From an uncultured Bacteroidota bacterium (GTDB lineage Bacteria; Bacteroidota; Bacteroidia; Flavobacteriales; Flavobacteriaceae): DNA of 56,773 nt. Of the stretch, positions 26,947 through 56,773 are shown piece by piece. Below the pieces are notes generated by a model. It saw nothing but the letters and a program-made list of their open reading frames with translations. It had not been told where the DNA came from and ran no database searches. Every line of letters begins with the position of its first letter. Positions within the stretch are counted from its first letter, which is position 1. The translations under genes and the position numbers were made by a program. The stretch lies in contig CACMUP010000009.1 in NCBI GenBank assembly GCA_902616905.1, forward strand, positions 1 to 56,773. Reading direction: 5' to 3'.

Positions 26947-28752
26947 CTAAGATCTTTTCAACATTAAAAGTCTAAAGTCCATCAATTCTTTTCCAGTTTT
27001 TTTAATGCCCTTTAATCTTAGTGTGCCCTTCCCTTTTTTAAGTTTTATTCTTCCAACATCTAGGGGTAAAAAATCTTTAACATAAGATTCAATTCTAGGA
27101 GAGCGATCTCGAAATTCACCATATTCCTCTGGGTCATAAAACTTTTTAATTTCTCCTATAACTTTAGAATCTCCAAAAGTCAATTCAAATTGAGACCCAA
27201 TTGCGTCTTCTGCACAAGTAAAATAGATAATTACTTCGAAATCACCATCTTCAGCTACTTCAACATCCCAAGTAATCGAATCTTTTACATCAATCCAATT
27301 TGTCATAAAACTACAATTTGGATAATAGTTTGATCTCTTAATTTCACCGTTAGGGGTTGCGTCTCTAGCTGGAATTTGAGTATTTTGCATTTTAGGGTGA
27401 CCGATTATAAAAGGTCTTTTGTCTTTTTTTGGGAGTTCAGATAATACATTTTGCTTCCATTTTATTTTTTCATTTTTCATGGATTCAAAAATTTCAGGGT
27501 GTATATTCGATACATCCTCAAACTGATTTGGATCATTCTCCATATCAAAAAGCTGATTTTTATGGTCAAGTCTAAATTTTTGACTTCTAAGGCTCAATCT
27601 TCCTCTCCAATAACTAAAAATAGTTCTGTCTTCCCAATTTACATTCTCACCATAAATTAACTCTTTAAGGCTTAATCCATCTAATTTATTTTTTGGGACA
27701 TCCCTAATATTAACTAAATCTTTTAGAGTTGGGAGTAAATCTATTCCAGCACCTATTTCTTTTACAATTTTCCCTTTAGGTAAGTTTCCCTCCCATTTAA
27801 TAATAAGTGGTGATCTAATCCCTCCTTCATTTGTTGATCCTTTTCTACCTTTCATTCCGGCATTCCATCGATTGCCATTTGGACCATTATCAGAAAGAAA
27901 TACTATAATTGTATTTTCCAAAATCCCCAATTCTTTTAATTTTTTATTAATTTTTCCTACGTTCCAATCAATATTCTCACACATTGCAAGTGCAGCTCTT
28001 GTATGATTCAAATTTTGTATTGAGTCAACACCAGAATCTTTGGAATAAATATAATCTCTTGTATCTCCCTTTTGGATTATATTTTTAGTTTCAAATTTAT
28101 TCCAAAATTTATCAGGAACCTGCATGGGACTATGAGGAGTATTGAAGGGTAAATAAAGAAAAAAAGGATTCTTTTGATTCTGCTCAATAAACTTTAATCC
28201 TCGATTAGTAAAATCATCAATTATAAATCCTTCCCCTCTAACAAGTTCACCATTATGTTCTAAAAGTGGATTAAAATAATTTCCCCAATGACCAGAACAA
28301 AATCCATAAAAATCATCAAACCCTCTTGTATTTGGATGATAGGGCGCTTGCATTCCATTATGCCATTTTCCATATACAGCAGTCTTATACCCATTATTTT
28401 TTAAAACCTCTGAAATAATTTCTTCATCTAAATCAACTCTCTCTCCTCCTTTTGAAACATCATAAACTCCAGTTCTTACGTGATGTCTTCCAGTAAGAAT
28501 TTCAGCACGCGTTGGTGAACACACTGGGCTAACATAAAACCGATCAAAACGAACCCCATTGATAGCTAACTGATCTATGTTTGGAGTTAATAAATTTTTA
28601 TTACCATTAATACTTAAATCACCCCATCCTTGATCGTCTGTTAAAATCAAAATTATATTCGGAGGATCAATAATTGTTTTAGAATTACAACTTAAAAAGA
28701 GGAATGTTAAAATCAATACAAACAAAGATTTAACACCTTTAAATTTTTTCAT
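26947..28752 (-). CDS. S1-type sulfatase 1, lipoprotein, with C-terminal domain
   Basis: The 601-residue sulfatase has a lipobox ending LFLSCNS and the N-terminal metal motif ILTDDQGWGD. The formylglycine motif is C-S-P-T-R at Cys78 followed by LTGRHHVRTGVY, and the second metal site is FLSDNGPNGNRW. About 120 extra residues at the C-terminus (from about 480, with DGDFEVIIYFTC) look like a beta-rich domain often attached to arylsulfatases. It needs FGE modification, available from the gene at 35467. It starts the locus on its left and lies 257 bases downstream of sulfatase 2, same strand. Confidence 0.93.
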   Translation of the reverse strand: MKKFKGVKSLFVLILTFLFLSCNSKTIIDPPNIILILTDDQGWGDLSINGNKNLLTPNIDQLAINGVRFDRFYVSPVCSPTRAEILTGRHHVRTGVYDVSKGGERVDLDEEIISEVLKNNGYKTAVYGKWHNGMQAPYHPNTRGFDDFYGFCSGHWGNYFNPLLEHNGELVRGEGFIIDDFTNRGLKFIEQNQKNPFFLYLPFNTPHSPMQVPDKFWNKFETKNIIQKGDTRDYIYSKDSGVDSIQNLNHTRAALAMCENIDWNVGKINKKLKELGILENTIIVFLSDNGPNGNRWNAGMKGRKGSTNEGGIRSPLIIKWEGNLPKGKIVKEIGAGIDLLPTLKDLVNIRDVPKNKLDGLSLKELIYGENVNWEDRTIFSYWRGRLSLRSQKFRLDHKNQLFDMENDPNQFEDVSNIHPEIFESMKNEKIKWKQNVLSELPKKDKRPFIIGHPKMQNTQIPARDATPNGEIKRSNYYPNCSFMTNWIDVKDSITWDVEVAEDGDFEVIIYFTCAEDAIGSQFELTFGDSKVIGEIKKFYDPEEYGEFRDRSPRIESYVKDFLPLDVGRIKLKKGKGTLRLKGIKKTGKELMDFRLLMLKRS

Positions 28753-29009
28753 TATTCCTTTTCTTTAAATATAAAAATAAATCATACTCAATATTCTGTC
28801 TTGAGATTTCTTTTTTTATACAAATAAGTTCAATCTAGATTTTATTTATTCTTAGTATATCAAATTTTTACTAAGATTTCTTGGTGCTATTTTTAGATGG
28901 TAATTTTTGGAGTTTGTGTATAAATGTTGGGTTTTAGTTTTTTAAAAAAACATTCATAATTTATAAAAAAATGAGAAAATTATATTAGGATAAAATATTT
29001 AAGATAAGA

Positions 29010-30398
29010 TTAGTTCAATGGTTGTTCTAATTGATATTCCTTGTCATACAAATCCAATTGATTTCGTTTCCATCTTGCACCTTCCAAGAATAGTATATGA
29101 GGTGTAGAAACATCCCAATCTCCTAATTCTTTTAGCATTGATTTTACCAAATCCATATTTTCTAAAGCAATATTATTTTGCTCTGAGGGATCATTATTTA
29201 AATTGAATAATAATGGTATTCTATCAGGTAAACGAACTAACTTCCAATTTCCTTTTCTTATACCTGCACTAATAGTAAAACGCCACATCATTGTTTGATG
29301 TGGTACACCTTGAATTTCATTGGTTAAATATGGAAAAATATTTACCCCGTCAAGCTTATCTTTATCAGTGATTTTTCCTCCTGCTAATTCAACAAAAGTT
29401 GGCATTAAATCTAAAGAAGTGATGGGATTCTTGTAAATTCCTTCTTTTAATTTTTCAGGATAAGAGATAACAAATGGGATGCGAATCCCACCCTCTAATA
29501 AAATCCCTTTACTACCATTTAAGGGAGCATTTATAGAGCCATTATTTCCGGTTGGCCCACCGTTGTCACTAAAGAAAACCACAATAGTTTTTTCATAGAT
29601 CTCTTGTTTTTTTAATTCTTTTACCATTCTACCCACGTTTAAGTCTAAACGATGAATCATTGCCGCATAAGTTCTTCTTTTTTTATCCTTTATATGACTA
29701 TAAATCTTCAAATCTTGATCAGTGGCTTGCATAGGGGTGTGTGGTGCATTGAAAGAAGCATATAAAAAGAAAGCTTCATCTTTATGCCTTATTATAAAAT
29801 CTACGCACTCATCCCCTTTATCGTCTGTTAAATATGTTATGGCTTGAGGTTTTTTATAGTTAGAAATAATCGGTCTGTCATATTTTTTTCCATTATATTC
29901 TGATGGAAAATAGTTATGTCCTCCTCCTAAGTAACCCCAAAACTCGTCAAATCCTCTATTAGTAGGATAGAATTGTTCCTTTTCTCCCAAATGCCATTTA
30001 CCAACTATACCAGTTACGTAGCCTAACTCAGAAAGTCTATCAGCAATTGTTTTTTCAGAAACTGGAAGTCCTGAAAATTGAGGATTAAATTGTGGGAGTG
30101 CGTCAGTTAGATTATTGTCGTATCCAAAATTGACTTGATTTCTCCCTGTAATTAAACCTGCCCGAGATGGGGCACATACTGGAGCAGAAACATACGCTTG
30201 TGTGAATATTACACCAGAATTCGCCAAAGCGTCAATATGTGGTGTTTTGATTTGTGTACTTCCGGTAAATCCTAAGTCTCCATAGCCTAAATCATCTGCT
30301 AAAATAATGATGAAATTTGGTCTTGTTTTATTATTTTGCTGGGCTTTAACCAAACCACTTAATACAAGTAAAACTATTAATATACTTCTAATTTTCAT
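29010..30398 (-). CDS. S1-type sulfatase 2, secreted
   Basis: This 462-residue sulfatase has a Sec signal peptide ending GLVKAQ, not a lipobox, so it is probably soluble in the periplasm. Landmarks are IILADDLGYGDLG, the formylglycine motif C-A-P-S-R at Cys75 followed by LITGRNQVNFGYDNN, KWHLGEKEQFYPTNRGFDEF and VVFFSDNGGPTGNNGS. All fit the S1 alkaline-phosphatase fold. A 9-bp inverted repeat at 30437-30456 lies just upstream and could be an operator. Sulfate position and sugar are not readable from sequence. Confidence 0.93.
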   Translation of the reverse strand: MKIRSILIVLLVLSGLVKAQQNNKTRPNFIIILADDLGYGDLGFTGSTQIKTPHIDALANSGVIFTQAYVSAPVCAPSRAGLITGRNQVNFGYDNNLTDALPQFNPQFSGLPVSEKTIADRLSELGYVTGIVGKWHLGEKEQFYPTNRGFDEFWGYLGGGHNYFPSEYNGKKYDRPIISNYKKPQAITYLTDDKGDECVDFIIRHKDEAFFLYASFNAPHTPMQATDQDLKIYSHIKDKKRRTYAAMIHRLDLNVGRMVKELKKQEIYEKTIVVFFSDNGGPTGNNGSINAPLNGSKGILLEGGIRIPFVISYPEKLKEGIYKNPITSLDLMPTFVELAGGKITDKDKLDGVNIFPYLTNEIQGVPHQTMMWRFTISAGIRKGNWKLVRLPDRIPLLFNLNNDPSEQNNIALENMDLVKSMLKELGDWDVSTPHILFLEGARWKRNQLDLYDKEYQLEQPLN

Positions 30399-30436
30399 TT
30401 TTTTAATTTCTATGGAATTATAACAAATACTTTTTT

Positions 30437-30456
30437 ATCACAAAATTTTTTGTGAT
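30437..30456. promoter_or_regulatory. Inverted repeat upstream of sulfatase 2
   Basis: ATCACAAAA and TTTTGTGAT form 9-bp arms separated by two bases, 39 bases upstream of the sulfatase 2 ATG. The symmetry is operator-like and it lies where a promoter is needed. It might be a chance AT-rich match. Confidence 0.35.
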
Positions 30457-30772: not shown

Positions 30773-32323
30773 ATGAAAAAACTATTACTATTTTTAATTT
30801 CTGTGCTATACTTAGGATGCAAATCCTTTGACTCATCCCCCCCAAATATATTATTTGTCATTTCTGACGACCAGTCCTATCCACACACAAGTATTTATGG
30901 TACGAGGTGGATAAAAACACCCGGATTTGATCGTGTTGCAAGGGAGGGCTTATTATTCAAACATGCATACACAACTAATGCAAAGTGCTCTCCTTCAAGA
31001 TCTTCCATTTTAACAGGAAGGGATAGCTGGCTTCTCGAAGAAGCGGCAAATCACGTTCCTTTTTTCCCTGAAAAATTCTTAACATTCCCTGAGGTTTTAA
31101 AGAAAAATGGTTACAAAACAGGAAAAACCGGCAAAGGATGGGCTCCTGGTGTTGCACTGAAAAATGGAAAGCAAAGAGACTTAATAGGTGAAGATTATAG
31201 TAGCGTAAAAGTTGATCCTCCAACAAAGTTCATTAGTAATATTGATTATTTCGAAAATTTTAAAAATTTTCTTGATGAAAAACAAAATAATCAACCATTT
31301 TTTTTCTGGGTTGGGGGTTTAGAACCTCATCGTCGCTATGAGTACAATTCAGGAATAAAATATGGAAATAAAGAAGTTAAAGAAATCGAAAAAATCCCAA
31401 GTTATTGGCCCGAATCTAACAATATTAAAACAGATATGCTAGATTATGCATTCGAAATTGAATATTTTGATAGTCACTTGGAGCGTATCATTCATGAATT
31501 GGAGAAAAGAGATTTATTAGAAAATACCATCATAGTTGTAACGTCAGATAATGGTATGCCCTTTCCTAGAGTTAAAGGACAGGTATTCCCTTTTGATAAC
31601 AGACTCCCTTTGGCAGTAAGTTGGGGGGAGGGAATTAAAAACCCAGGCAGAATTATAAATGACTATGTAAGCTTTTCAGATTTTGCACCTACCTTTTTAG
31701 ATCTTGCTGGAATTAAAATAGAAAACCACGATATGGAAGATTTTTCGGGTGTAAGTTGGAAAGATATTTTCAATGATGATTCAATTTTAAAAAAAAGAGA
31801 TTACATAATTATTGGAAAAGAACGTCACGATGTAGGCAGAAAAAATGATAAAGGCTATCCCGTACGTGGAATTATAGCAGGGGATTATTTCTTTAGCATA
31901 AATTTTAATCCTGAGCGTTGGCCAGCAGGAAATCCAGAAACTGGTTATCTTAATACAGATGGAAGTCCGACCAAAACAGAAATATTAAACCTAAAAAGAG
32001 AAGGTAAGACAGAGCTTTATTGGCAATATGCATTCGGAAAAAGACCTAGAGAAACTTTATATGATATTAAAAATGATCCTAACTGTATTAATAATATTGA
32101 AGAATACGATAAATACATTCCTCTAAAGGATAGCTTAAAGAAGATCTTAATCAAGGATTTAACAAAAAACAAAGACCCAAGGATCCTAGGAAAAGGAGAA
32201 GTGTTTGATAATTATCCCTATGCAGACATGAAAACAAAAAACTTTTACGATCGCTATATGGGTGGAGAATTATTAGAATCAAACTGGGTCAACCCTTCAG
32301 ATTTTGAATCTAATTTTGAATAG
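30773..32323 (+). CDS. S1-type sulfatase 3, lipoprotein, sulfamidase-like
   Basis: This 516-residue sulfatase has a lipobox ending VLYLGCKS. The N-terminal FVISDDQSYPHTSIYG is the form seen in the N-sulfoglucosamine sulfohydrolase-like branch (S1_8) rather than in arylsulfatases with GYG. The formylglycine motif is C-S-P-S-R at Cys72, followed by LTGRDSWLLEEAANH, and a later motif is VVTSDNGMPFPRVKGQ. The N-sulfatase-like assignment is inference; O-sulfatases also occur in that branch. It is preceded by leader repeat A and followed at once by leader repeat B and the secreted protein gene. Confidence 0.92.
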   Translation: MKKLLLFLISVLYLGCKSFDSSPPNILFVISDDQSYPHTSIYGTRWIKTPGFDRVAREGLLFKHAYTTNAKCSPSRSSILTGRDSWLLEEAANHVPFFPEKFLTFPEVLKKNGYKTGKTGKGWAPGVALKNGKQRDLIGEDYSSVKVDPPTKFISNIDYFENFKNFLDEKQNNQPFFFWVGGLEPHRRYEYNSGIKYGNKEVKEIEKIPSYWPESNNIKTDMLDYAFEIEYFDSHLERIIHELEKRDLLENTIIVVTSDNGMPFPRVKGQVFPFDNRLPLAVSWGEGIKNPGRIINDYVSFSDFAPTFLDLAGIKIENHDMEDFSGVSWKDIFNDDSILKKRDYIIIGKERHDVGRKNDKGYPVRGIIAGDYFFSINFNPERWPAGNPETGYLNTDGSPTKTEILNLKREGKTELYWQYAFGKRPRETLYDIKNDPNCINNIEEYDKYIPLKDSLKKILIKDLTKNKDPRILGKGEVFDNYPYADMKTKNFYDRYMGGELLESNWVNPSDFESNFE

Positions 32324-35466: not shown

Positions 35467-36540
35467 TTAAAATTCTACTGACCGTACTAGTCTAAAACCT
35501 GTGTGTTGAAGGCCTGTATCTGGAGAAGACTTCATTCTTGAAGCCACTCTATATCCAGAGCAATATAAATCATTGCAAAGGAAAGATCCCCCACGCATAA
35601 CCTTTTGACTCAAATAAGGTTGATAAGGGTCATATGAAACTTTAGGTCCTTGAGGATTAGTTCCTTTTTGACTTTTAAATGATTCATAGTAAGTGTAATC
35701 ATACCAATCTGAACACCATTCCCAAACATTTCCAGCCATATCGTAAAGTCCGAATGAATTTGGTTTGAAGGAACCAACTGGAGCCGTGTAAAAAAACTGG
35801 TCTTTCAATGTATTTTCAAAAGGAAAACTACCTTCCCATGAATTGGCTTTAGGGACGCCCTTGGTTATAGCTTCATTTCCCCAAGGATACTTTGCATTTA
35901 CACCACCACTTGCAGCCCATTCCCATTCTGCTTCTGTGGGTAAACGCTTCCCTGACCATTTAGCATATGCCTGAGCATCATACCAAGATATATGAACAAC
36001 TGGGTGGTCCATTTTATCTTCTATCGAACTTCCTTTTCCTTTAGGATTACGCCAACTAGCTTCTGATTTCCATTGCCACCATGCTCCATAATCATTTAAA
36101 TTTACGGGTCCGTCGGTTTTTTCAAAAACTAATGAAGCTGCTTTTAGTAGTGAATCATTTGGTTTTGCTGTGCCTGGTGGAAGTTCCTTTTTCAATTCTT
36201 CCCAGTTGGGTTTTTTCTCAGCAGTAGTAATATATCCAGTGGCATCAACAAACTCTTTAAATTGAAAATTAGTTACCTCAGTTTGATCCATCCAAAAAGC
36301 ATCAACATGTACAGGATGAATTGGAGATTCGTCCTCCCGAGCTTCTTTATCTGTACTCCCCATCATAAAATCTCCTGAAGGAATCATTACCATTCCGTCT
36401 TTTAATATAATTGAAGGAATTTTTCCTCGACTATTATTACAATTAATAAAAAGTGAAAAAATAAATATCCCAATTAATAAATGAACGTGATTATCTTTTA
36501 AATTTTCCGTTTTTATAATGTTAATAATATTTATTTTCAT
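35467..36540 (-). CDS. Formylglycine-generating enzyme (FGE), lipoprotein
   Basis: This 357-residue enzyme would oxidise the Cys of C-x-P-x-R motifs in sulfatases to formylglycine with oxygen and copper. The active-site pair Cys322 and Cys327 is present in MRGGSFLCNDLYCSGYRVAS, matching the arrangement in characterised FGEs. Other SUMF1-fold stretches are MVMIPSGDFMMGSTD, FWMDQTEVTN, RLPTEAEWEWAASGG and GLYDMAGNVWEWCSDWYD. The N-terminus has a signal ending LFINCNN, which suggests lipidation and activity outside the cytoplasm. It lies directly downstream of sulfatase 4 (128-base gap, same strand) in a locus of eleven Cys-type sulfatases, a clear functional fit. Confidence 0.92.
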   Translation of the reverse strand: MKINIINIIKTENLKDNHVHLLIGIFIFSLFINCNNSRGKIPSIILKDGMVMIPSGDFMMGSTDKEAREDESPIHPVHVDAFWMDQTEVTNFQFKEFVDATGYITTAEKKPNWEELKKELPPGTAKPNDSLLKAASLVFEKTDGPVNLNDYGAWWQWKSEASWRNPKGKGSSIEDKMDHPVVHISWYDAQAYAKWSGKRLPTEAEWEWAASGGVNAKYPWGNEAITKGVPKANSWEGSFPFENTLKDQFFYTAPVGSFKPNSFGLYDMAGNVWEWCSDWYDYTYYESFKSQKGTNPQGPKVSYDPYQPYLSQKVMRGGSFLCNDLYCSGYRVASRMKSSPDTGLQHTGFRLVRSVEF

Positions 36541-41100: not shown

Positions 41101-41240
41101 ATCTACTTTTATTAACTGAATATCAGTGGGGAGATCCTGAAGTAAGTAAAAGTGGTAATGGCTCACTTGCACAGGGTATATCTGATAATCCATATCCTTA
41201 CTCCACCTCATTAGCGGTTGGTTTTAGGCTGAACTTATAA
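38157..41240 (+). CDS. SusC/RagA TonB-linked outer-membrane transporter
   Basis: This 1027-residue outer-membrane protein imports oligosaccharides with its SusD lid. After a signal peptide ending QLFSQ comes a carboxypeptidase-regulatory-like domain (ITISGVISDDEANPLPGVNI, DFDGNYTISA), the TonB-box region LEEVVITGYGVTKKKDLVSS, the plug (VIRIRGMSSINGNNKPLFVI, IESIEVLKDASSLAIYGTRG) and a long beta-barrel. A loop with DVNQDGNINELDF resembles a calcium site. It is the only SusC in the window, followed by susD after 11 bases. The 20-bp palindrome upstream is a candidate control site. Confidence 0.97.
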   Translation: MNISKKRLSDYKLNLTKYLGIIVLFFISTIQLFSQEITISGVISDDEANPLPGVNIFIKGTKTGTATDFDGNYTISANSGDILEISFVGFETQEIEVGNDSSIDVTMVTDYANLEEVVITGYGVTKKKDLVSSISQIKGDALVNQPVARVDNMLQGRAAGVNVVSSSGEPGAAAVIRIRGMSSINGNNKPLFVIDGFIVGTDFNLSNLNTNDIESIEVLKDASSLAIYGTRGAAGVILITTKSGLSTQEGKVDVSINHYSSFDQVYNYPEMADIGTWAEYWNEGVTLVAGPDGYGFNDPTIEAVHAPNWQSITPTIWSDLITRQGRIDNTDVNLSGNSGNANYFISYNRFDQEGVIEGSGLTRNSIRVNFDLNVSDRIRTGVRLGVTDRKQENNKVNWNDVYFNLIPTMQVYNEDGTYNGLNPVSGSFENNPVADINELIDHNLVTNLLANAYAEYDLVPNLTLRSSVGSNLTTNRGNYYKSNLEPRIAAQGTGGEAEIGFSRTTGFLNENTLTYTNDFGDHSLKVLAGYTRQKDVFTDVEAAGAGYANDVVTFNNLSLGSDATRNVIGSDFSQRTFESILARINYAYKDKYLLTLVGRRDGSSVFEQGNKYAFFPSAGAAWKISEEDFMQDVETISNLKLRASYGVVGEQGVNPYNSLAKYNSRNIFFNQSISPAVILASLPSTGLEWEKTYQTDIGLEIGFQNNRFSIEIDYYNKQTKDLLLARPLPGTAGDTRLENVGEVENKGFEFSINSVNIEKPDFLWSSNLQISANRNSVVSLGDAPFINLDEGVDILHRQAGPAIRLIPGEVMPTFVGATYEGTYKSAAEIDADQRTGIDFIGAPNYVDVNQDGNINELDFIPLGSPQPDFYYGFRNTLSYKNWTLDIFIQGMQGNEVLDASVYEEYYGRGPETNILPILADRWTVDNPTSDIPRAGTSAGGYRPMSSLNVVDGSYLRLKNISLNYDFDLPFADSASVYLTANNLLLLTEYQWGDPEVSKSGNGSLAQGISDNPYPYSTSLAVGFRLNL

Positions 41241-44307: not shown

Positions 44308-44313
44308 TTGAAT

Positions 44314-47373: not shown

Positions 47374-48369
47374 TTATTTTTTGTTAACCTTAAAAAATTT
47401 GAAGCTTTCATTTTTTAAACTTATTGTTTTAGATTCATTATCTATTATTAGATCAAGAATCCCTGTTTTTCTTGGTCTCAATTTATCAATAGAATTATGT
47501 GTATGTAATACATATTTTATATAATTTTTAGTTTCATTAAAAAAAACATCACCATGTCCCGGTCCGCTTTGATTTATATTACTAAAATTTATTAAAGGAT
47601 TTTTTTTTGACTTATTCCAAGGTCCTAAAGGACTTGAACTTGTTGCGTATCCTACAGCATAATTTGAACTTTTGAAATTATTTGCTGAATAAAGCATATA
47701 ATAAGTGCTATCTATTTTAAAAACACTCGGCCCCTGGACATTTTTAAAATCAATATTATCTTCATTCTCCCACGGACATTCTGATGATAGACACTTGGTC
47801 AATGTTTCTTCATTTATTTCCCTTAAGCCCTTTTCTAGTTCAGCTACAAAAATTTCATTATCATTAATTACTTTTTTCACATGATACAAGTAAAATTTAT
47901 TGTTGTCAAAGAAAACGAATGGATCAATTTGTCTATGCTTTGCTTTAAAATAGTTTCTATTTTTTTCTTTAAATGGACCAAGAGGGCTTTCAGAAAAAGC
48001 AATAGCAATTTTTTCGTTTACTGTATAAAACATATAATATAAATTATCTCTCTTAAAAATTTGAGGAGCCCAAAAACCTTTGTCTCCAAAAGCATTTCCC
48101 TTTTTTAAAGCATAACCTTTATATTCCCATTTCACTAAATCATTTGAAAGATATACTTTTATTCCATTATTAGTGCTATCTACACCACCAGCAGTAGTCC
48201 CATATAAATAATATATACAACCATCTTTAAAGATTGTAGGATCGGCTAAATAAATATTTTGTTTAAAGGACTTAAAAATATCACAGTTTGTTATGAAAAT
48301 AAATAAAAAAAACACCCCTAAGGGAATAAGTTTTTTCACAGAAGTTCTATTTTTTTGATCGAATTTCAT
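47374..48369 (-). CDS. GH43-like glycoside hydrolase, lipoprotein, altered acid residue
   Basis: The 331-residue protein fits the five-bladed GH43 fold: Asp43 in YLADPTIFKDG is the usual general base, Asp149 in RQIDPFVFF is the usual pKa modulator, and WEYKGYALKKG with FWAPQIFKRDN is typical. Where GH43 has the acid Glu in an EGP motif, here VQGPSVFK gives Gln212 (codon CAG). Activity may be lost or changed, or a different residue may supply the acid. The lipobox ends FIFITNCD. It overlaps the end of sulfatase 8 by 23 bases, so translation may be coupled. A role in side-chain removal such as arabinose or xylose is inference. Confidence 0.8.
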   Translation of the reverse strand: MKFDQKNRTSVKKLIPLGVFFLFIFITNCDIFKSFKQNIYLADPTIFKDGCIYYLYGTTAGGVDSTNNGIKVYLSNDLVKWEYKGYALKKGNAFGDKGFWAPQIFKRDNLYYMFYTVNEKIAIAFSESPLGPFKEKNRNYFKAKHRQIDPFVFFDNNKFYLYHVKKVINDNEIFVAELEKGLREINEETLTKCLSSECPWENEDNIDFKNVQGPSVFKIDSTYYMLYSANNFKSSNYAVGYATSSSPLGPWNKSKKNPLINFSNINQSGPGHGDVFFNETKNYIKYVLHTHNSIDKLRPRKTGILDLIIDNESKTISLKNESFKFFKVNKK

Positions 48370-49981
48370 TTATTTTATCCCAAGATAATACTTTGGTCTT
48401 AGTTGCCCACTCATTATACATTTCTTTCATATTGTTTGCAATATCAGGGAACTCACCTATTATATTATTCTGCTCAGTTCTGTCATTAGAAATATTATAA
48501 AGTTCCCAATTATCGTTATTGTTTTTTTCCCAGTCTAATACAAGTTTGTAATCACCATGGCGAACAGCTTTATTCCCTTCATGCTCCCAGAATATTGGTT
48601 CTTCATGGATTTCTTTAGTAGAGCCTAAGAAAATTGGGATTAAACTTTTCCCTGAGTGTTTTTTTATTTTATTACCATTAAATATCTCAGGTTGAACAGT
48701 ATTGGCCAAATCTAAACATGTAGCCATAATATCTGGTAAAAAACCATATTGATTGTTTGTTGATCCTCTAAGATTTTTGGATATCCCATTTGGCCAATTC
48801 ACAATGAAAGGAGTTCCAATACCCCCTTCATGTGTCCAATGTTTATAAGATCTATATGGAGTATTTGAAGCATTTGCCCATGCCTTACCATATGAAAGTA
48901 AGTAACCTTCCTTAGTTTCCAATTGTTCTTTAGGACCACTACCAAGCATATCATTCTCTGCACAGGCTCCATTATCATTTAGAAACATTATAATTGTGTT
49001 ATTGTACAGTTTCTTTGTTTTTAAATTATCTATCAGTTTTCCAATATTTTGATCCATTCTATCAATCATTGCTGCGTATATTGCCATTCTAAGATCCATT
49101 TCTTCTCTTTTTTGAATAGTTAGCGAGTCCCACGAAATAATATCATCATAGCTTAATTCCCAAGAAGAGTCTACAAGGCCCATTTCAATCATTCTGTTAT
49201 AACGCTCCTTTCTAAGTATTTCCCAACCATTGGAATATTTTCCTCTATATTTATCAATATCCTTTTTAGGAGCCTGTAGAGGCCAGTGTGGAGCATTGTA
49301 AGATAAGTATAGAAAAAATGGATTCTCTTGATTCTCCAATTTAGCTTTATCAATGTACTCAATTGCTTTATCTGTAAAGGCGTCTGTTGTGTAATAATCT
49401 TCATCATTAATTTCGATTTTTTCATTCCCTTCAAAAATGAACCTGGGGCCTTCAGGTTTAAAATAATTTCCAGCACCTGAAATGAAGCCATAAAATTTAT
49501 CAAAACCCCTTTGCAGGGGCCACTGATTTTTATCAAAGAAACTTAAATGCCATTTTCCACTAATTAATGTTGAATAACCAGTCTTTTTAAGAACTTCCGC
49601 AATTGTAACAACATTAGAACTTAATTTACCTTGGTATTCTGGCGTACCGTAATTATGGCCCTTAGGGTCTTTTGGTGGATTAGTCATATGGCCTACTCCT
49701 GCTTCATGTGGATAATTCCCAGTTAATAATGAAGCTCTTGTGGGACAGCATCTAGCAGCATTATAGAATTGAGTAAACTTTATACCGTTTTTTGCTAAAT
49801 ATGAAAGGTTTGGAGTATCAATTTCTCCTCCATAAGGTGCTATATCAGAATAACCCATATCGTCTGACATAATTAGAATTATATTGGGGCGATCAATTTT
49901 TAAATCATTTCTTTTTGATTCACAAGAATTAAATAAAAACCAGGTTGAAATAATTAAAAGTGATTTTTTAATTTTTGGCAT
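48347..49981 (-). CDS. S1-type sulfatase 8, lipoprotein, arylsulfatase-like
   Basis: This 544-residue sulfatase is the second longest here. The lipobox ends FLFNSCES. Motifs are LIMSDDMGYSDIAPYGGEI, the formylglycine site C-C-P-T-R at Cys78-Cys79, LLTGNYPHEAGVGHM and IMFLNDNGACAEND. A double Cys at this site is a known variant of the motif (S1_4-like), with Cys78 the residue to be modified. It is 34 bases downstream of sulfatase 9 and overlaps the GH43 gene. Confidence 0.93.
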   Translation of the reverse strand: MPKIKKSLLIISTWFLFNSCESKRNDLKIDRPNIILIMSDDMGYSDIAPYGGEIDTPNLSYLAKNGIKFTQFYNAARCCPTRASLLTGNYPHEAGVGHMTNPPKDPKGHNYGTPEYQGKLSSNVVTIAEVLKKTGYSTLISGKWHLSFFDKNQWPLQRGFDKFYGFISGAGNYFKPEGPRFIFEGNEKIEINDEDYYTTDAFTDKAIEYIDKAKLENQENPFFLYLSYNAPHWPLQAPKKDIDKYRGKYSNGWEILRKERYNRMIEMGLVDSSWELSYDDIISWDSLTIQKREEMDLRMAIYAAMIDRMDQNIGKLIDNLKTKKLYNNTIIMFLNDNGACAENDMLGSGPKEQLETKEGYLLSYGKAWANASNTPYRSYKHWTHEGGIGTPFIVNWPNGISKNLRGSTNNQYGFLPDIMATCLDLANTVQPEIFNGNKIKKHSGKSLIPIFLGSTKEIHEEPIFWEHEGNKAVRHGDYKLVLDWEKNNNDNWELYNISNDRTEQNNIIGEFPDIANNMKEMYNEWATKTKVLSWDKINEIRSKK

Positions 49982-50015: not shown

Positions 50016-51500
50016 CTAACCTTTTGAGTTTATTTTTTGTTCAAAGGGAAACCATTCTCCTTTTCCATCTCGATTTTGACGACTTATAGCCTTCATTTCC
50101 GTTTCAATACCAAGGTCCCCTTGCTGTTTCATCCAGTCCTTAAGTTTGATTGCTAGATCATTTTTAATATCAAAATATTCAGGTTTTTCGGCAATATTGG
50201 TTTTCTCAAAGGGATCATTTTCTAAATCATATAATTCCTCAAAAGGGCGATTTTTATAACTTTTAACCCTATTTAATTCTTCTTCATTTTTAGCATATTT
50301 TAACCATGACTTGTAAATTAAATAACCTGTGCGTGTCGTGTCTTCTGCCGTTAGGATATTGTAAAAGATTTCATTGTGACTCAAATTTTGAATGTACTTA
50401 TATTTTTTTGTACGAATAGAACGGATCGGATAAGATTTTGGACCATTTATTACACCTCGTGAAGTTTGAACGCCGTAAGAAAAATCTCTGTGATTGTTTG
50501 TTTTTCCAATCATTGAATAAAAAAAACTTTTCCCATCAAAACCTGTATTCCCATTTGGATCTGAAATACCTACATTAATTTCATTTGGATTTTCACCTAT
50601 TGCGTCAAGTAATGTTGGAATTATATCAACATATTGTGTCATTGCTTTATTTCTTGTGTTGGGCTTTATTATGCCTGGCCATTTAGCTATAAATGCAGTT
50701 TTAAGACCCAGATCATAACACGTCCATTTCCCAAATGGAAATGAAAATCCTTGCTCACTAGTAAAAATAGAAATTGTATTTTTAGTTTTGTTTGCTTTAC
50801 TAATATAATCAAGGGTCTTGCCAAGAAGGCTATCCATGTAAGTTATTTCGGTATAATAGGAACTTAATTCTTTCCGAGTTATAGGTGTATCTACCATATA
50901 ATCTGGTATTATTAAATCTTCATCTTTATATTTATTTGAATCTCCTCTGTTCCACGGAGTATGGGGTTGATTTTGAGCAATTATTAAAAAGAAAGGCTTA
51001 TCCCCAGTAACTATGGGATTAATTTTACTTAGGTTGATATCTTTTCCTCCGAATCCAGTATCGTGCTGTAAACCTCCAAGATAATTAATTGGGAAAGAAT
51101 CTTGAGGCCCGTAGTGTTTTTTCCCGATTAATGCAACCTCGTAACCAAGTTCTCCAAAATGGTGAACAAAACTTTTAACCCCATCATAAACTTCAGAGTG
51201 ATTTGGATAAGCTCCACTTCTTACTGGATATAACCCGGTCATTAGTTGTTGGCGAGTTGGTGCGCACATAGCGGTTGAGGTGAACATATTATCAAAACTA
51301 ATGCCCTCGTTTGCTAATTTCTGAATATTAGGAGTTTTAACTACTTTACTTCCATAAGGTTCACAATCGTTCCATGACATGTCATCCCCTATAAAAATTA
51401 AAATGTTGGGTAATTTTTTTGTTTGCTCTTTTAGGTCCGTATTTTTTAAATTACAAGACATCAATAAAATGCAAATAACTAACTGAATTATTAATCTCAT
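50016..51500 (-). CDS. S1-type sulfatase 9, lipoprotein, sulfamidase-like
   Basis: This 494-residue sulfatase has a lipobox ending ILLMSCNLK. IFIGDDMSWNDCEPYG and the formylglycine site C-A-P-T-R at Cys79, followed by QLMTGLYPVRSGAYPNHS, resemble the N-sulfoglucosamine sulfohydrolase-like branch, as in sulfatase 3. FTSEQGFSFPFGKWTCYD replaces the usual DNG block with EQG, a change found in that branch. It is the first gene of the four-gene minus-strand unit, divergent from GH2. Confidence 0.92.
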   Translation of the reverse strand: MRLIIQLVICILLMSCNLKNTDLKEQTKKLPNILIFIGDDMSWNDCEPYGSKVVKTPNIQKLANEGISFDNMFTSTAMCAPTRQQLMTGLYPVRSGAYPNHSEVYDGVKSFVHHFGELGYEVALIGKKHYGPQDSFPINYLGGLQHDTGFGGKDINLSKINPIVTGDKPFFLIIAQNQPHTPWNRGDSNKYKDEDLIIPDYMVDTPITRKELSSYYTEITYMDSLLGKTLDYISKANKTKNTISIFTSEQGFSFPFGKWTCYDLGLKTAFIAKWPGIIKPNTRNKAMTQYVDIIPTLLDAIGENPNEINVGISDPNGNTGFDGKSFFYSMIGKTNNHRDFSYGVQTSRGVINGPKSYPIRSIRTKKYKYIQNLSHNEIFYNILTAEDTTRTGYLIYKSWLKYAKNEEELNRVKSYKNRPFEELYDLENDPFEKTNIAEKPEYFDIKNDLAIKLKDWMKQQGDLGIETEMKAISRQNRDGKGEWFPFEQKINSKG

Positions 51501-51588: not shown

Positions 51589-53859
51589 ATGAAAAATTTA
51601 ATTTTTGTTATTCTAATAATCATTTTTTTTCCATGTTGCAACAAATTATCCAAATTAAATCAAAATAATAAAATTGAATGGACCCCAGCGGGGAATAAAA
51701 TTAAGACTGAGTGGGCATCTCAAATTACAACAGAAAATGTGTGGCAAAACTACCCTCGACCACAAATGGTGAGATCGAAATGGAAAAACCTTAACGGCCT
51801 TTGGGATTATACGGTATTAAATAGAATGCCCAGAGAAAAATTAGTCCCTATAACTTATAAAGAACAAATACTTGTCCCTTTTTCAATTGAATCAAGTTTA
51901 TCAGGTGTAGGTGAAGAGTTATCTCCTGTTGAAGTTTTGTGGTATAGAACCAATTTTGATGTATCAGATTGGAAGGAAAAAGAAATCCTAATTCATTTTG
52001 GTGCTGTTGATTACAAATCTACTTTATACATTAATGGGATTAATGTTGGAACTCATATAGGAGGGAACGACCCTTTTTCATATAATATCACACCCTTTAT
52101 CGATAATAATCGAAAAACTCAAGAATTAGAACTTTCAGTATGGGATCCAACTGACACAGACACACAGCCTAGAGGAAAACAAACACTTAGACCTAGAGGA
52201 ATTTGGTATTCTGCAGTTTCTGGAATTTGGCAAACAGTTTGGCTAGAACCAGTTGAAAAAACACATATTAATAATATTAATATTATCTCAGATATTGATA
52301 CGGAAAAAATTAATATTCTAATTGATCTTAGAAATTCGGAGGGAAATGAGAGATATTTAGTTAAAGTTTTTGAAAGTGATACATTGTTAGTAGATCAAGC
52401 ATTTAAATCAATAGACGAAATAAAAATAGATCTAATAAACCCTAAATTATGGTCCCCAAAAAATCCCCAATTATATGATATTGAAATTGAAGTTTTTAGA
52501 GACAGTATTATGCTTGATAAAATCACCTCTTACTTTGCAATGAGAAAAATAAGTATTGGTAAAGATAAACACGGCTTTACTAAATTGTATTTAAACAATG
52601 AAGAGCTATTTCATTGGGGGACTCTAGATCAAGGATGGTGGCCTGATGGTCTTTTAACACCACCCTCTGTTGAAGCTATGGTTTATGATATGAATGTATT
52701 AAAAAGCTTAGGTTTTAATGCCATTCGTAAACATATTAAGGTTGAACCGGCAATTTATTATCACAAGGCAGATAAGTTAGGCTTTTTAATATGGCAAGAT
52801 ATGCCATCTGGCTTTTTACATAATCATCATCCTGAACAACACGTAATGTGGGGAAATAAAAAAGATTGGGATAGACCTGAAGAATCAGCCATTTTATTTA
52901 AAAAAGAATGGAAAAATATAATTGATCATCTTAAGTTTTTCTCAAGTATTGTTGTTTGGATTCCATTTAACGAGGGGTGGGGTCAGTTTGAAAGTAAAGA
53001 GATAACTAAATGGACAATGAATTATGATATTACCAGATTAACAAATGGAATAAGTGGATGGGATGATAGAAAGGTCGGTCATTTTATTGATCTTCATCAA
53101 TACCCTGGACCAGGGATGGAACCTCCATCACAGAACGAAGGAAGAGCTGTTGTATTAGGAGAATTTGGAGGTTACGGTTACCCAGTTAAGAACCATCTAT
53201 GGAACGAAACAAACGAAAATTGGGGTTATCGAGTATCGAAAAATATTGAAAGTTATTTAAAAGATTATAATGATGTAATATTTAATCTCCATGGAGAAAG
53301 GTCTAGGGGTTTAGCGGCAGCTTTCTATACCCAAACAACTGATGTAGAAATTGAGGTAAATGGTCTATTGACCTATGACAGAAGAGTTACAAAATTACCA
53401 ATCAATTCGACAAAAAAAATTCATAAGAAATTATTTAATGAGTTTGGAAGAGCTGAATTTTTAATTAAAGATTCAGAAATTTTAGTTGAAAGTAAGAAAT
53501 TCACAAATGAAAGATTACCATCCAATTGGGAAAAAAATCCAAAAAATAATAACCAATTTAAGTTAATAGAATTTCCTGCCAATCTTGAAATTGGACACTC
53601 AGTGTTTTCTTTTGAGGAATTCAAAATAAAGAAAATTCCCAATAATTTAGCTTTAAAGTTCTATGGAAATGGCGATGTAATTATTTATATTAATGGAGAA
53701 AAAGTTTTGGAAAAATATTTAAGGACAAAACGTCATTATGACGATATTAACTTGAGTAATCACATAAACAAGTTAAAAAAAGGATTAAATAAAATTGCTA
53801 TTGAAATTAATAATCCAAATGAAAATGGTCAATTTGATTATGGTTTGTATGTCTTCTAA
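51589..53859 (+). CDS. GH2-family glycoside hydrolase, lipoprotein
   Basis: This 756-residue protein has a lipobox ending FFPCCNK and the GH2 layout: a sugar-binding jelly roll (NLNGLWDYTVL, VPFSIESSLSGVGEELSPVE, WYRTNFDV), an Ig-like domain and a TIM barrel. The acid/base Glu462 lies in VVWIPFNEGWGQF and the nucleophile Glu525 in VVLGEFGGYGY, so it should be active. About 190 extra residues at the C-terminus form a beta-rich domain. Typical GH2 activities are beta-galactosidase, beta-glucuronidase or beta-mannosidase; NLNGLWDYTV-type proteins in Bacteroidota are usually beta-galactosidase-like, but the specificity is open. It starts the plus-strand operon with two sulfatases. Confidence 0.92.
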   Translation: MKNLIFVILIIIFFPCCNKLSKLNQNNKIEWTPAGNKIKTEWASQITTENVWQNYPRPQMVRSKWKNLNGLWDYTVLNRMPREKLVPITYKEQILVPFSIESSLSGVGEELSPVEVLWYRTNFDVSDWKEKEILIHFGAVDYKSTLYINGINVGTHIGGNDPFSYNITPFIDNNRKTQELELSVWDPTDTDTQPRGKQTLRPRGIWYSAVSGIWQTVWLEPVEKTHINNINIISDIDTEKINILIDLRNSEGNERYLVKVFESDTLLVDQAFKSIDEIKIDLINPKLWSPKNPQLYDIEIEVFRDSIMLDKITSYFAMRKISIGKDKHGFTKLYLNNEELFHWGTLDQGWWPDGLLTPPSVEAMVYDMNVLKSLGFNAIRKHIKVEPAIYYHKADKLGFLIWQDMPSGFLHNHHPEQHVMWGNKKDWDRPEESAILFKKEWKNIIDHLKFFSSIVVWIPFNEGWGQFESKEITKWTMNYDITRLTNGISGWDDRKVGHFIDLHQYPGPGMEPPSQNEGRAVVLGEFGGYGYPVKNHLWNETNENWGYRVSKNIESYLKDYNDVIFNLHGERSRGLAAAFYTQTTDVEIEVNGLLTYDRRVTKLPINSTKKIHKKLFNEFGRAEFLIKDSEILVESKKFTNERLPSNWEKNPKNNNQFKLIEFPANLEIGHSVFSFEEFKIKKIPNNLALKFYGNGDVIIYINGEKVLEKYLRTKRHYDDINLSNHINKLKKGLNKIAIEINNPNENGQFDYGLYVF

Positions 53860-55375
53860 TTTTAAGACTTTTTTAAGGTTATCTAAATTATTTTTAGTAA
53901 GCTTTCTTTTTGAAGGAATTTATGGTCAAGTAAATTTCGCAGATCAAAACAAGCTTAATGTAATTCTGATTTTGGTGGATGACCTTAAGCCTACTTTAGG
54001 GATTTATGGAGATTCCTTTTCAAAAAGTCCTAATATCGACCGCCTTGCTGCGGAGGGACTTAGATTTAACTTGGCATATGCAAATCAGGCCGTTTGTGCT
54101 CCTTCTAGATATAATCTGATGTTAGGGAAAAGGTCAACCTCAACAGGTTTATACAGATTTGGAGTAAACTTTAGGGATGTTTACCCAGAAATTGAAACCT
54201 TACCTCAAATATTTAAAAATAATGGATATCATACTGAGTCAATAGGTAAGGTTTATCATATTGGTCATGGAAACATAAATGACGAGCAATCATGGAGTGT
54301 TCCTCACCGTAGTGATAAGGTTATAGAATATATTCTTCCAAAAAGTAATAATTATGAACTAACAAGAGAGGAAGCATATTTTGAAAATTATAATCTGTAT
54401 TCTAAAGAAAAAATTGATATAAATAAATTATCAAGGGGTGCTGCATGGGAGTCGCCAGATGTTTTGGATGAAGCCTATGCAGACGGCAGAATTGCAAGAC
54501 ACGCTATTAATAGATTAAGATACTTAAGTCAAAGTAAAAACCAACCCTTTTTTCTTGCGATTGGATTTGTTAGACCGCACCTTCCGTTTAGTGTGCCAAA
54601 AAAATATTGGGATTTATATCAAAAAGACAAACTCCCACAACCACAATTTGAAAGACCTCCAAAGGATGCACCAAAATACGCTGTAAAAAGGGGAGGTGAA
54701 ATAAATAATTTTAGACCCATAGATCCATCAAAGACATTGCTAAGTAAAGAACTTAAACAAAATTTAATTCACGGTTATTATGCAAGTGTTAGCTATATGG
54801 ATGAGCAAATGGGTCGAGTAATGAAAGAGGTTAAAAGACTTAAACTTGATAAAAATACAATAATAATTTTGTGGGGGGATCATGGTTGGCATTTAGGTGA
54901 TCACGGGATATGGACAAAGCACACTAATTATGAACAAGCAACAAGGATACCTTTGATTATAAAAGCACCTGGTTACACATCAAAAAATACTCAATGTAAT
55001 CAGACAGTTGAGACTGTTGATCTTTACCCAACTTTAACCGATTTAGCAAATTTGAAAAGAAAATCGCCAATTCATAAACTTGACGGAAAAAGTTTGGTTC
55101 CAATAATTAAAGATTCGCTAATTGATCTAAAAGATCATATTTATCATTCATATATTAGAAAAGGAAACCTTGGAGAAGCAATAAGAGGCATTAGGTACAG
55201 AATGGTCCGTTGGACTAATTTAACAAATAAAAATAAAATCGAATATGAATTATATGATTACAAAGAAGATCCTAGCGAAAGAATTAATATTGCTAAAGAA
55301 AGAAAAAAAATTTTAAATTTTTTTTTAGAAAAATTAAATTCTTATCCAGCTGCTAAAAAACCCATTTTAAAGTAA
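53849..55375 (+). CDS. S1-type sulfatase 10, iduronate-2-sulfatase-like, secreted
   Basis: I chose the ATG at 53849, giving 508 residues; further in-frame ATGs at 53840 and upstream lie inside GH2. It overlaps the GH2 end by 11 bases, which suggests translational coupling. A signal peptide ends near FEGIYGQ. LVDDLKPTLGIYGDSF and WGDHGWHLGDHGIWTKH are the S1_7 (iduronate-2-sulfatase-like) pattern, and the formylglycine site is C-A-P-S-R at Cys83. It is the only one apart from sulfatase 2 without a lipobox. Confidence 0.92.
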   Translation: MSSNFKTFLRLSKLFLVSFLFEGIYGQVNFADQNKLNVILILVDDLKPTLGIYGDSFSKSPNIDRLAAEGLRFNLAYANQAVCAPSRYNLMLGKRSTSTGLYRFGVNFRDVYPEIETLPQIFKNNGYHTESIGKVYHIGHGNINDEQSWSVPHRSDKVIEYILPKSNNYELTREEAYFENYNLYSKEKIDINKLSRGAAWESPDVLDEAYADGRIARHAINRLRYLSQSKNQPFFLAIGFVRPHLPFSVPKKYWDLYQKDKLPQPQFERPPKDAPKYAVKRGGEINNFRPIDPSKTLLSKELKQNLIHGYYASVSYMDEQMGRVMKEVKRLKLDKNTIIILWGDHGWHLGDHGIWTKHTNYEQATRIPLIIKAPGYTSKNTQCNQTVETVDLYPTLTDLANLKRKSPIHKLDGKSLVPIIKDSLIDLKDHIYHSYIRKGNLGEAIRGIRYRMVRWTNLTNKNKIEYELYDYKEDPSERINIAKERKKILNFFLEKLNSYPAAKKPILK

Positions 55376-55395
55376 AACAAAATACACTTATTAAT

Positions 55396-56773
55396 ATGAA
55401 AAATTTTTTACATTTTGCAATCATTTGCTTTTTAATTTCGTGCTCTAAAAAAAATAATGTAAAATCCGACCATCCAAATTTTATATTCATTTTAGCCGAT
55501 GATCTTGGTTATGGTGAATTAGGGGTTTTAGGACAAAAAATAATTGAAACACCAAATATTGATCAATTAGCAAAAGATGGAATGATTTTAACCAATCATT
55601 ATTCTGGTTCTCCAGTATGTGCTCCAGCTCGAGCTGTTTTATTAACTGGTTTGCATACTGGAAATAATCCAATTAGAGGAAATGATGAATGGAAAGAACG
55701 TGGGGATGTTTGGAGTTTTGAAGAGATGTTTAAAAACTCTGAGCTTGAAGGTCAGCGTCCCTTACCAGATTCAACAATTACTGTTGCTAGTTATTTAAAA
55801 TCAAACGGTTACAAAACTGGAATGGTTGGTAAATGGGGTCTCGGCGCACCAAATACAAGTAGTATTCCAAATAACATGGGTTTTGATTTTTTTTATGGAT
55901 ATAATTGTCAGAGACAAGCTCATACACTTTACCCAACCCATTTATGGAAAAATAAAGAAAGAGATATCTTAAAAAATATTGTGGTTGACAAAGGGAAACT
56001 CAAGGAAGGTCTTGATCCATATAATTCTGAAAGCTATAAGCTTTATAATCAGAATGATTATGCTCCGACCTTGATGCATAAACAAGCATTAAAATTCCTT
56101 GATAAAAATAAAGATGATAAATTTTTTCTTTATTATGCGAGCCCACTACCACATCTTCCTCTTCAAGCTCCAAAAAAATGGGTTGATTATTACAGAAAGA
56201 AAATAGGAGAAGAAAACCCATATATTGGGGATAGCGGATATTATCCTAACCAATTCCCAAAGGCTACATATGCGGGAATGATATCATATTTAGATGAACA
56301 AGTGGGTGAAATTGTTTCAAAACTAAAAGAAATTGGAAAATATGACAATACAATAATTATTTTTACAAGTGATAATGGTCCAACTCATGTAGAGCAAGTT
56401 GATATTAATTTTTTTAATAGTGCTGGAATTTTTGTTAACTCAAAAAAAACTGTAAAAGGTAGTGTTAATGAGGGTGGAATTAGAGTTCCTACTATTGTAA
56501 CATGGCCTAAGAAAATAAAGAGTGGAACAAAATCGGACCACCCATCTACCTTTTATGATTTCTTTGCAACAGTTTCTGATATCGTAGGAAATCCTCTTTA
56601 CAATAAAACAGACGGTCTTTCTTATTTACCAAGTTTGATAGGTAAAGATCAAAAGGAGCATGACTATCTTTATTGGGAATTTACTGGTTATGGAGGCCAA
56701 CAGGCGATCCGAATTAATCAATGGAAGGGTATTAAACGAGATTTATTTAAAGGCCCTTCTAATCTAGAATTAT
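55396..56773 (+). CDS. S1-type sulfatase 11, lipoprotein (cut by window end)
   Basis: From the ATG at 55396 the frame is open for 459 codons to the end of the window, so the 3' end is missing. The lipobox ends CFLISCSKK. Motifs are FILADDLGYGELGVLG, the formylglycine site C-A-P-A-R at Cys75 (with Ala, not Ser or Thr, in the fourth position), LLTGLHTGNNPIRGN, and IIFTSDNGPTHVEQVD. The long insert after HTGNNPIRGN (DEWKERGDVWSFEEM, then EGQRPLPDSTITVASYL) is typical of arylsulfatases of this type. It lies 20 bases after sulfatase 10 in the GH2 operon. Confidence 0.92.
   Translation, partial: MKNFLHFAIICFLISCSKKNNVKSDHPNFIFILADDLGYGELGVLGQKIIETPNIDQLAKDGMILTNHYSGSPVCAPARAVLLTGLHTGNNPIRGNDEWKERGDVWSFEEMFKNSELEGQRPLPDSTITVASYLKSNGYKTGMVGKWGLGAPNTSSIPNNMGFDFFYGYNCQRQAHTLYPTHLWKNKERDILKNIVVDKGKLKEGLDPYNSESYKLYNQNDYAPTLMHKQALKFLDKNKDDKFFLYYASPLPHLPLQAPKKWVDYYRKKIGEENPYIGDSGYYPNQFPKATYAGMISYLDEQVGEIVSKLKEIGKYDNTIIIFTSDNGPTHVEQVDINFFNSAGIFVNSKKTVKGSVNEGGIRVPTIVTWPKKIKSGTKSDHPSTFYDFFATVSDIVGNPLYNKTDGLSYLPSLIGKDQKEHDYLYWEFTGYGGQQAIRINQWKGIKRDLFKGPSNLEL

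Follow-up and report, generated by a model that had tools for sequence, protein, structure and literature searches.

A SusC/SusD locus dominated by divergent sulfatases in an uncultured flavobacterium, possibly specialised in desulfating galactose-rich glycans

Gene content of the locus

The DNA studied here (the window, 56,773 bases) is the entire contig C9 of an uncultured Flavobacteriaceae genome (G000; 1.56 Mb, 68% complete), and the part from position 26947 to the contig end carries a SusC/SusD locus dominated by sulfatases. All 19 open reading frames (ORFs) of at least 120 amino acids (aa) in this part were scanned against Pfam; they comprise eleven sulfatases, SusC, SusD, a formylglycine-generating enzyme (FGE), one member each of the glycoside hydrolase (GH) families GH43 and GH2, and three other genes, with no polysaccharide lyase (PL), GH92, GH29 or GH16 among them. 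Genomes, contigs and loci are referred to below, where they must be told apart, by our working labels (G, C and L).

26947..28752, minus strand: sulfatase 1 (601 aa, lipoprotein-like start; PF00884, CSPTR)
29010..30398, minus strand: sulfatase 2 (462 aa; PF00884, CAPSR)
30773..32323, plus strand: sulfatase 3 (516 aa; PF00884; 75% identity to the SusC-adjacent sulfatase of L035)
35467..36540, minus strand: FGE (357 aa; PF03781)
36669..38000, minus strand: sulfatase 4 (443 aa; PF00884)
38157..41240, plus strand: SusC-type TonB-dependent transporter (1027 aa; TIGR04056)
41252..42811, plus strand: SusD-type lipoprotein (519 aa; PF07980, PF14322)
42889..44307, plus strand: sulfatase 5 (472 aa; PF00884)
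44308..45732, plus strand: sulfatase 6 (474 aa from TTG, first ATG 44314; PF00884)
45773..47326, minus strand: sulfatase 7 (517 aa; PF00884)
47374..48369, minus strand: GH43-family protein (331 aa; PF04616)
48347..49981, minus strand: sulfatase 8 (544 aa; PF00884)
50016..51500, minus strand: sulfatase 9 (494 aa; PF00884; 67-69% identity to one in G249)
51589..53859, plus strand: GH2 protein (756 aa; PF00703/PF02837/PF02836)
53795..55375, plus strand: sulfatase 10 (526 aa from TTG; PF00884)
55396..56773, plus strand: sulfatase 11 (459 aa, cut by the contig end; PF00884)

A compact core (35467-56773) holds eight of the sulfatases, and sulfatases 1-3 (26947-32323) are set apart from it by three genes to which Pfam gives no role in glycan use and which lie between sulfatase 3 and the FGE (one without a family, one CAP and one Band 7 protein); despite this gap, the orthologue of sulfatase 3 adjoins SusC in the related locus L035. 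SusC and SusD are adjacent (38157-42811), as in a polysaccharide utilization locus (PUL) of the SusC/SusD type; SusC matches TIGR04056 at 806.5 bits (cut-off 368.25), and SusD carries both PF07980 and PF14322. The listed TTG start of sulfatase 10 lies inside the GH2 gene, and the probable start is the ATG at 53849, from which the frame overlaps GH2 only slightly and opens with a signal-peptide-like stretch. Sulfatase 11 runs off the contig and is 46-49 residues shorter than three of its orthologues. A loose lipoprotein-signal pattern, applied by script, was matched by eight of the eleven sulfatases and by the FGE, SusD, GH43 and GH2; sulfatase 3 has an LGC by eye, and sulfatases 2 and 10 gave no match. 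Directly before the sulfatases lies an SMP-30/gluconolactonase-type protein (25624-26637), a possible but uncertain member of the locus.

The FGE carries GGSFLCNDLYCSGYR, a C-x4-C motif that we take to be the active-site pair of the enzyme, and it is 82% identical to the FGE in the related locus of G300 and 53% identical to those in the loci of G065 and G281; no FGE was found in the spans read from G249 and AG-325-E04. A second protein of the FGE fold (PF03781) is encoded in the window at 10929-12608, and we assume it to be the gliding lipoprotein GldJ, probably, and not a sulfatase activator.

A reading of the window from its sequence only had placed a GH43, a GH2, a SusC/SusD pair and an FGE alongside the sulfatases. 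All of these families are present, with the reservation that the GH43 protein may not work. Aligned to the structures 3kst and 4qqs, it retains D43 (ADP) and D149 (IDP), and Q-G-P replaces E-G-P, residue 212 being Gln (codon CAG). We take the roles of the three residues in this family to be Asp base, Asp modulator and Glu acid, position 212 being that of the catalytic acid. Glu is found at this position in all 13 homologue loci of 11 other genomes (39-52% identity), the homologues coming from a search in which 12 of 397 family genomes, the window's own included, matched at E<=1e-30. Because Gln212 occupies the position of the catalytic acid, the window protein may not be a working hydrolase; either the general acid has been lost or the assembled base is wrong. 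In the GH2 protein Glu462 and Glu525 are present, in NEG and GEFG motifs, and are presumably the two catalytic Glu residues, so that this is apparently the one intact hydrolase of the locus. Its nearest solved relatives are 7sf2 and then beta-D-galactofuranosidase 2.

The sulfatases and their nearest solved relatives

PF00884 was found above cut-off in all eleven sulfatases, each of which is an open frame, and each contains C-x-P-x-R-x5-G; eleven S1-type sulfatases with an intact motif had been predicted, and the finding against which that prediction had been set, that most of the proteins fall outside S1, did not appear. In gene order the motifs are CSPTR, CAPSR, CSPSR, CTPSR, CAPSR and CNPSR for sulfatases 1-6, and CTPSR, CCPTR, CAPTR, CAPSR and CAPAR for sulfatases 7-11, the residue before the Arg being Ser or Thr in ten and Ala in one (CAPAR). 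Pairwise identities lie at 22-42%, the higher of these values being over short stretches, and the proteins belong to separate orthologue groups; recent duplication was therefore rejected as their source, in agreement with the expectation that they are not simple duplicates. Eleven of the 14 sulfatases of the genome that exceed the Pfam cut-off lie here (binomial P ~4e-17 for random placement; a 631-aa frame on C1 that matches in two pieces is counted once).

The largest orthologue group is that of sulfatase 5 (14 sequences), followed by that of sulfatase 11 (13). Both are drawn from loci of large as well as small genomes, and both occur in the six large-genome loci read (G129 and G212 left out). 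The sulfatase 4 family is represented in four other loci (42-74% identical), and sulfatases 1 and 2 are singletons, the loci read having nothing orthologous to them at >=38% identity. Contig C32 of the same genome (L002) carries a sulfatase that starts at base 63 and bears a CSASR motif, followed by a 6-phosphogluconate-dehydrogenase-like gene and others without an evident glycan role, judged by eye; adjacency to the locus is possible, though C32 was not upheld as its continuation. By eye, we take the genes of C32 to be of a kind common in Planctomycetes. A DUF1501 gene lies on G000:C3 (L066 8222-9715) and a 1208-aa DUF1592/1588-type gene in G249.

Sulfatases 4, 5, 6, 7, 8 and 11 were compared with solved structures in the PDB, and four of them could be linked to a subfamily through the nearest solved relative rather than through SulfAtlas models; the structure codes were tied to the names of Bacteroides thetaiotaomicron enzymes via a table in PMC10154620 (this and the other papers cited are drawn on in part). 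Sulfatase 7 is nearest to BT3109 (S1_15; 7ozc, E 7e-195), which acts on 6-sulfated galactose (6S-Gal), sulfatase 11 to BT1622 (S1_20; 7ana, E 3e-144), which favours 3-sulfated N-acetylgalactosamine (3S-GalNAc) tenfold over 3S-Gal, and sulfatase 8 to BT4683 (S1_4; 7all, E 9e-109), which is endo-acting on 3S-Gal (PMC10154612). The nearest solved relative of sulfatase 5 is an S1_16 kappa-carrageenan sulfatase (9fo1, E 9e-88), and two S1_16 enzymes are reported to act on 4S-Gal/GalNAc (PMC10154612). No close solved relative was found for sulfatase 4 (best E 3e-43), and none at E<=1e-60 for sulfatase 6. Judged by their nearest solved relatives, four sulfatases thus appear related to enzymes for 3-, 4- or 6-sulfated galactose or GalNAc, and the several branches that had been foreseen are represented by S1_4, S1_15, S1_16 and S1_20. 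In addition, the DR of DRVP and an HHGH stretch are invariant in all four sequences of the sulfatase 7 group, a pattern that would fit the His and the Asp/Arg triad described for S1_15.

Related loci and the placing of backbone cleavage

A search with SusD gave matches in 38 of 299 family genomes at E<=1e-30, the window's own included. Scanning named genomes yielded four loci, of which three are close (78-80%): L033 from an uncultured Flavobacteriaceae, L034 from a record named Balneolaceae UBA2956, and L035 from AG-325-E04 (G299). In a tree of 28 SusD sequences the window, G249, L033, L034, L035, G300 (a fragment), G065 and G281 form one clade (100/100), whose members come from small-genome and uncultured marine bacteria and which lies apart from the relatives in large genomes (same family, 44-49% identical). 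G300 shares the genus of the window, but its SusD groups with those of G065 and G281 (100/100); because the window and G300 thus fall in different subclades, each with another genus, transfer of the locus between genera is probable. The sulfatase locus of G281 is closely preceded by an integrase of phage type and a type I restriction system (L096, G281:C2:17000-28999), which would fit arrival on a mobile element. The SusD of L034 is nearly identical to that of AG-325-E04 (branches of 0.003 and 0.015), and its Balneolaceae record is likely to be a mis-binned contig or wrongly named. In G300 the SusD gene and one of the sulfatase genes are both broken into two ORFs (L059/L060, G300:C2:248991-250608, 263718-264974), through either sequencing error or decay.

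Five other loci of the clade were read (L033 and L034 are too short to judge), and they hold 5 (G249), 9 (G065), 10 (G281), 8 (G300, one split in two frames) and 6 (AG-325-E04) sulfatases. The spans read from G249, G065, G281 and G300 contain no conventional glycoside hydrolase, and that of AG-325-E04 contains one, a GH51 that comes after araA, an araD-type aldolase and an FGGY kinase, beyond the locus; the G065 contig has FecR as its first gene, the sequence read from AG-325-E04 goes no further than GH51, and the scan of G300 passed over one frame of 106 aa. The L-arabinose isomerase of AG-325-E04 is split into two ORFs (L035 16115-17543), by a frameshift or as a decayed gene. A published PUL-calling rule demands at least two GH or PL genes (PMC6794258). 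None of the five spans contains two of conventional families, and the window has the GH43 and GH2 families, the GH43 without its catalytic-acid Glu. Other genes of these loci are an extracytoplasmic function (ECF) sigma factor with FecR in G249, G281 and G300 and FecR in G065, a beta-lactamase-family protein in G281, an oxidoreductase in G249, G065 and G281, PF06439 proteins at the edges of the G065, G281 and G300 loci and, in G249, a nucleotidyltransferase and, following the locus, a GHMP kinase with the galactokinase galactose-binding signature.

Sulfate removal had been proposed as the main task of the locus, with backbone cleavage done elsewhere or past the window end, and the flanks of the homologous loci, in which no hidden set of hydrolases or lyases was found, support this. 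The five genes scanned in the 12 kb before the G281 locus comprise the restriction system, the integrase and a repeat protein. Those scanned in the 16 kb after G300 include one GH3/beta-lactamase fusion, ~6 kb past the last sulfatase, with a penicillin amidase beside it and glycosyltransferase, ferredoxin-type and LptD-type genes, and the six scanned around G249 include no glycoside hydrolase or lyase. The sulfatase skew of the window is probably not an artefact of truncation.

The homologous loci of large genomes are unlike the window in having hydrolases within them. GH30 (PF14587) exceeds the cut-off in 5 of 21 genomes (G011, G129, G212, G229 and G236), each time <=7 kb from the homologous SusD, and in none of the 11 small genomes (a G299 match lies below it). 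LacZ-like GH2 proteins lie near SusC/SusD in G229, G162, G207 and G235, G229 having in addition another GH2 and a weak GH43 match there, and hybrid two-component regulators adjoin SusC in G229 and G236. One and the same transporter family is thus accompanied by hydrolases in large genomes and by hardly any in small ones.

In the window's own genome a LacZ-type beta-galactosidase is encoded on another contig (G000:C3:14971-18129; NF052611, 1055.5 bits against a cut-off of 999), and a further GH2 on contig C11. A LacZ search of 40 genomes gave matches in 13 at E<=1e-60; those with >60% identity are G000, G314, G313, G300, G065 and G281, the orthologues of the locus carriers G300, G065 and G281 being 66-67% identical. 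The closest copy lies inside the locus only in G229 (55%), and G162, G207 and G235 have a 41-42% copy within theirs. Among 23 same-genus genomes (G137 included; more may exist) LacZ occurs in four and SusD in two, both within those four (chance 0.024, uncorrected; absence of SusD means no match at E<=1e-130, or 1e-30 for G137). G249 and G299 have a GH2 43-44% identical to the window's; its neighbour shares 45-48% identity with a gene on G000 C11 that scans as an aldose 1-epimerase. The LacZ on C3 and its counterpart within the G229 locus favour the 'elsewhere' of the sequence-only reading; they support backbone cutting from other places without proving a pathway.

Proposed function and competing explanations

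Our favoured reading, in which confidence and doubt are about equal, is of a SusC/SusD uptake locus specialised in desulfating a glycan rich in galactose. The likeliest substrate is pieces of a sulfated, beta-linked galactan or arabinogalactan, and most backbone cutting would be encoded elsewhere. SusC/SusD would bind and import sulfated, galacto-type oligosaccharides, the FGE would activate the sulfatases by converting the motif cysteine to formylglycine, and the divergent S1 sulfatases would strip 3-, 4- and 6-O-sulfates, plus other sulfates. The desulfated galactosides would then be trimmed from their ends by exo-acting enzymes, namely the LacZ-type GH2 encoded elsewhere and perhaps the GH2 of the locus, releasing galactose. 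The ORFs of the locus include none for an enzyme with known internal action on such a polymer, and this step may be performed by other organisms. The sulfatases may lie in the periplasm or at the surface, and the order of the steps is a proposal.

Suitable substrates are described in green seaweeds, which contain 3-linked beta-galactans with sulfate on C-4 and/or C-6, as well as sulfated arabinans and galactofuranose side chains (PMC7550628); the last deserve attention because the second solved relative of the GH2 protein is beta-D-galactofuranosidase 2. Sulfated beta-galactans and arabinogalactans would fit, and the arabinose genes and GH51 beside the AG-325-E04 locus and the galactokinase-signature kinase after the G249 locus speak for the same reading. 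A described locus with a likeness in substrate is PUL 7 of Maribacter sp. MAR_2009_72, also a marine flavobacterium, which is induced by arabinogalactan and galactose and for which, as for the window, a galactan-type substrate is proposed. However, that PUL, as far as the source was drawn on, differs in having three SusC/SusD pairs, 13 CAZymes and one sulfatase (PMC11036162).

Several results weigh against this reading and lowered our confidence in it a little. The subfamily links apply to only four of the eleven sulfatases, and that of sulfatase 5 to S1_16 appears the weakest of the four, because its next matches are chains named GalNAc-6-sulfatase (E 6e-66 and 2e-64), ahead of the B. thetaiotaomicron S1_16 enzymes; the key Trp of S1_16 is, moreover, present in only 37% of the subfamily (PMC10154612). 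The GH2 protein falls well under all NCBIfam cut-offs, the best being beta-glucuronidase (99 of 544 bits). The GH30 of the large-genome relatives was not upheld as a proven endo-beta-1,6-galactanase, the solved matches being indecisive: the best for the G229 protein is an uncharacterised protein, and endo-beta-1,6-galactanase matches only at E 2e-10. LacZ as a strict partner of the SusD was only partly upheld: it occurs without the SusD in G313 and G314, the locus carriers G249 and G299 have no match at E<=1e-60, and the closest copies of G162, G207 and G236 (57-58%) lie outside their loci. AraA as a constant partner was rejected, being found in one of 11 genomes (G249, on another contig) and at the AG-325-E04 locus, and the window's genome, at 68% completeness, yielded no match. 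The G249 locus lacks both the sulfatase 5 and the sulfatase 11 families, and the seaweeds from which sulfated galactans are known do not belong to the plankton.

The PULs of marine flavobacteria for ulvan, carrageenan and fucoidan have many S1 sulfatases beside SusC/SusD and are defined by their lyases or endo-hydrolases. The window might be an ordinary PUL for one of these glycans or for glucuronomannan, with its lyases and hydrolases past the contig end, an alternative that we regard as unlikely while placing it ahead of the others. The contig does stop within sulfatase 11, and the large-genome relatives do have GH30, LacZ-type GH2 or weak GH43 matches near a similar SusC/SusD pair; nevertheless, the cognate lyases and endo-hydrolases, like GH92, GH29 and GH16, are not among the 19 ORFs, the spans of G281, G300 and G249 contain no conventional glycoside hydrolase or lyase, and the scanned flanks add none save the GH3/beta-lactamase fusion after G300. 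The glucuronomannan PULs of Polaribacter and Formosa share with the window their origin in marine Flavobacteriaceae, SusC/SusD and several S1 sulfatases (PMC6298971, PMC6794258, PMC9723552), and GH2 and GH43 can occur in them, as here. They are described as having three to four GH92 and <=6 sulfatases (PMC6794258), in contrast to eleven sulfatases and no GH92 in the 19 ORFs. Sulfatase-rich flavobacterial PULs are known, in company with hydrolases such as GH92, fucosidases or xylan enzymes (PMC6298971, PMC6794258, PMC9723552, in the parts drawn on). Among the matches listed from the open-licence PubMed Central literature, seen as titles and abstract openings, there was no sulfatase-only SusC/SusD locus, an absence of little weight; phrases describing such loci led to one paper, which deals with GH92 PULs.

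Control by ECF sigma and FecR is common in PULs for host glycans, and its genes in the loci of G281, G300 and G249, with FecR in G065, would agree with sulfated animal or mucin-like glycoprotein glycans as the target, which we judge improbable; no ECF/FecR gene is found among the 19 ORFs of the window. The sulfatases show a resemblance too: S1_4, S1_15, S1_16 and S1_20, which hold the nearest relatives of sulfatases 8, 7, 5 and 11, are four of the five subfamilies of the colonic-mucin set of B. thetaiotaomicron (the fifth being S1_11), and BT1622 prefers 3S-GalNAc (PMC10154612). A subtilase at the edge of the G300 locus fits weakly. That mucin set, however, is distributed among four or more PULs that also contain mucin hydrolases (PMC10154612), whereas the window has one locus, in whose 19 ORFs no amino-sugar or fucose hydrolase and no hexosaminidase, sialidase, fucosidase or protease family was found, and arabinose genes adjoin the locus of one relative.

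Cleavage of the desulfated backbone by a 3-keto route (a glycoside 3-dehydrogenase and a 3-keto-disaccharide hydrolase) instead of classical hydrolases was demoted from main route to rival because PF06439 proteins are common in every genome searched (4-12 matches in each of 11, locus or no locus), and we consider it very improbable. It would fit the GFO/IDH/MocA oxidoreductase and PF06439 protein found together at the edges of the G281 and G065 loci, the PF06439 protein just past that of G300, and the likeness of the G249 oxidoreductase to the BT_2158 glycoside 3-dehydrogenase model (169.8 bits against a cut-off of 750), but G065 and G281 share one genus and hence represent one event, and the window has no PF06439. 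The least credible explanation is an accumulation of sulfate-scavenging genes without a glycan role, for the release of sulfate or with small aryl or lipid sulfates as substrates; several loci do have sulfatases without hydrolases, but this one is centred on SusC/SusD, the nearest solved relatives of four of its sulfatases act on carbohydrates, and sea water is rich in sulfate.

We therefore return to desulfation of galactose-rich glycans as the favoured function, and add a more tentative proposal, in which we have less than even confidence, that the window belongs to a class of almost all-sulfatase SusC/SusD loci, passed between genera of small-genomed marine flavobacteria, that take in pieces of sulfated galactan set free by other organisms and live by desulfating these. 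Sulfate esters are regarded as a reason why algal glycans persist, and to our knowledge the identity of those that remove sulfate in the open ocean is poorly known. The locus also provides a compact, testable set of sulfatases with which the sulfation of marine galactans might be read, and the recurrence of a nearly all-sulfatase SusC/SusD locus suggests that labour is divided, small-genomed bacteria taking sulfate off fragments and living on these instead of attacking the polymer. PUL-calling rules with a minimum of two GH or PL genes, at least one of which is published (PMC6794258), would pass over such loci, and, if the proposal is true, a step in the carbon cycle of the ocean would have been undercounted.

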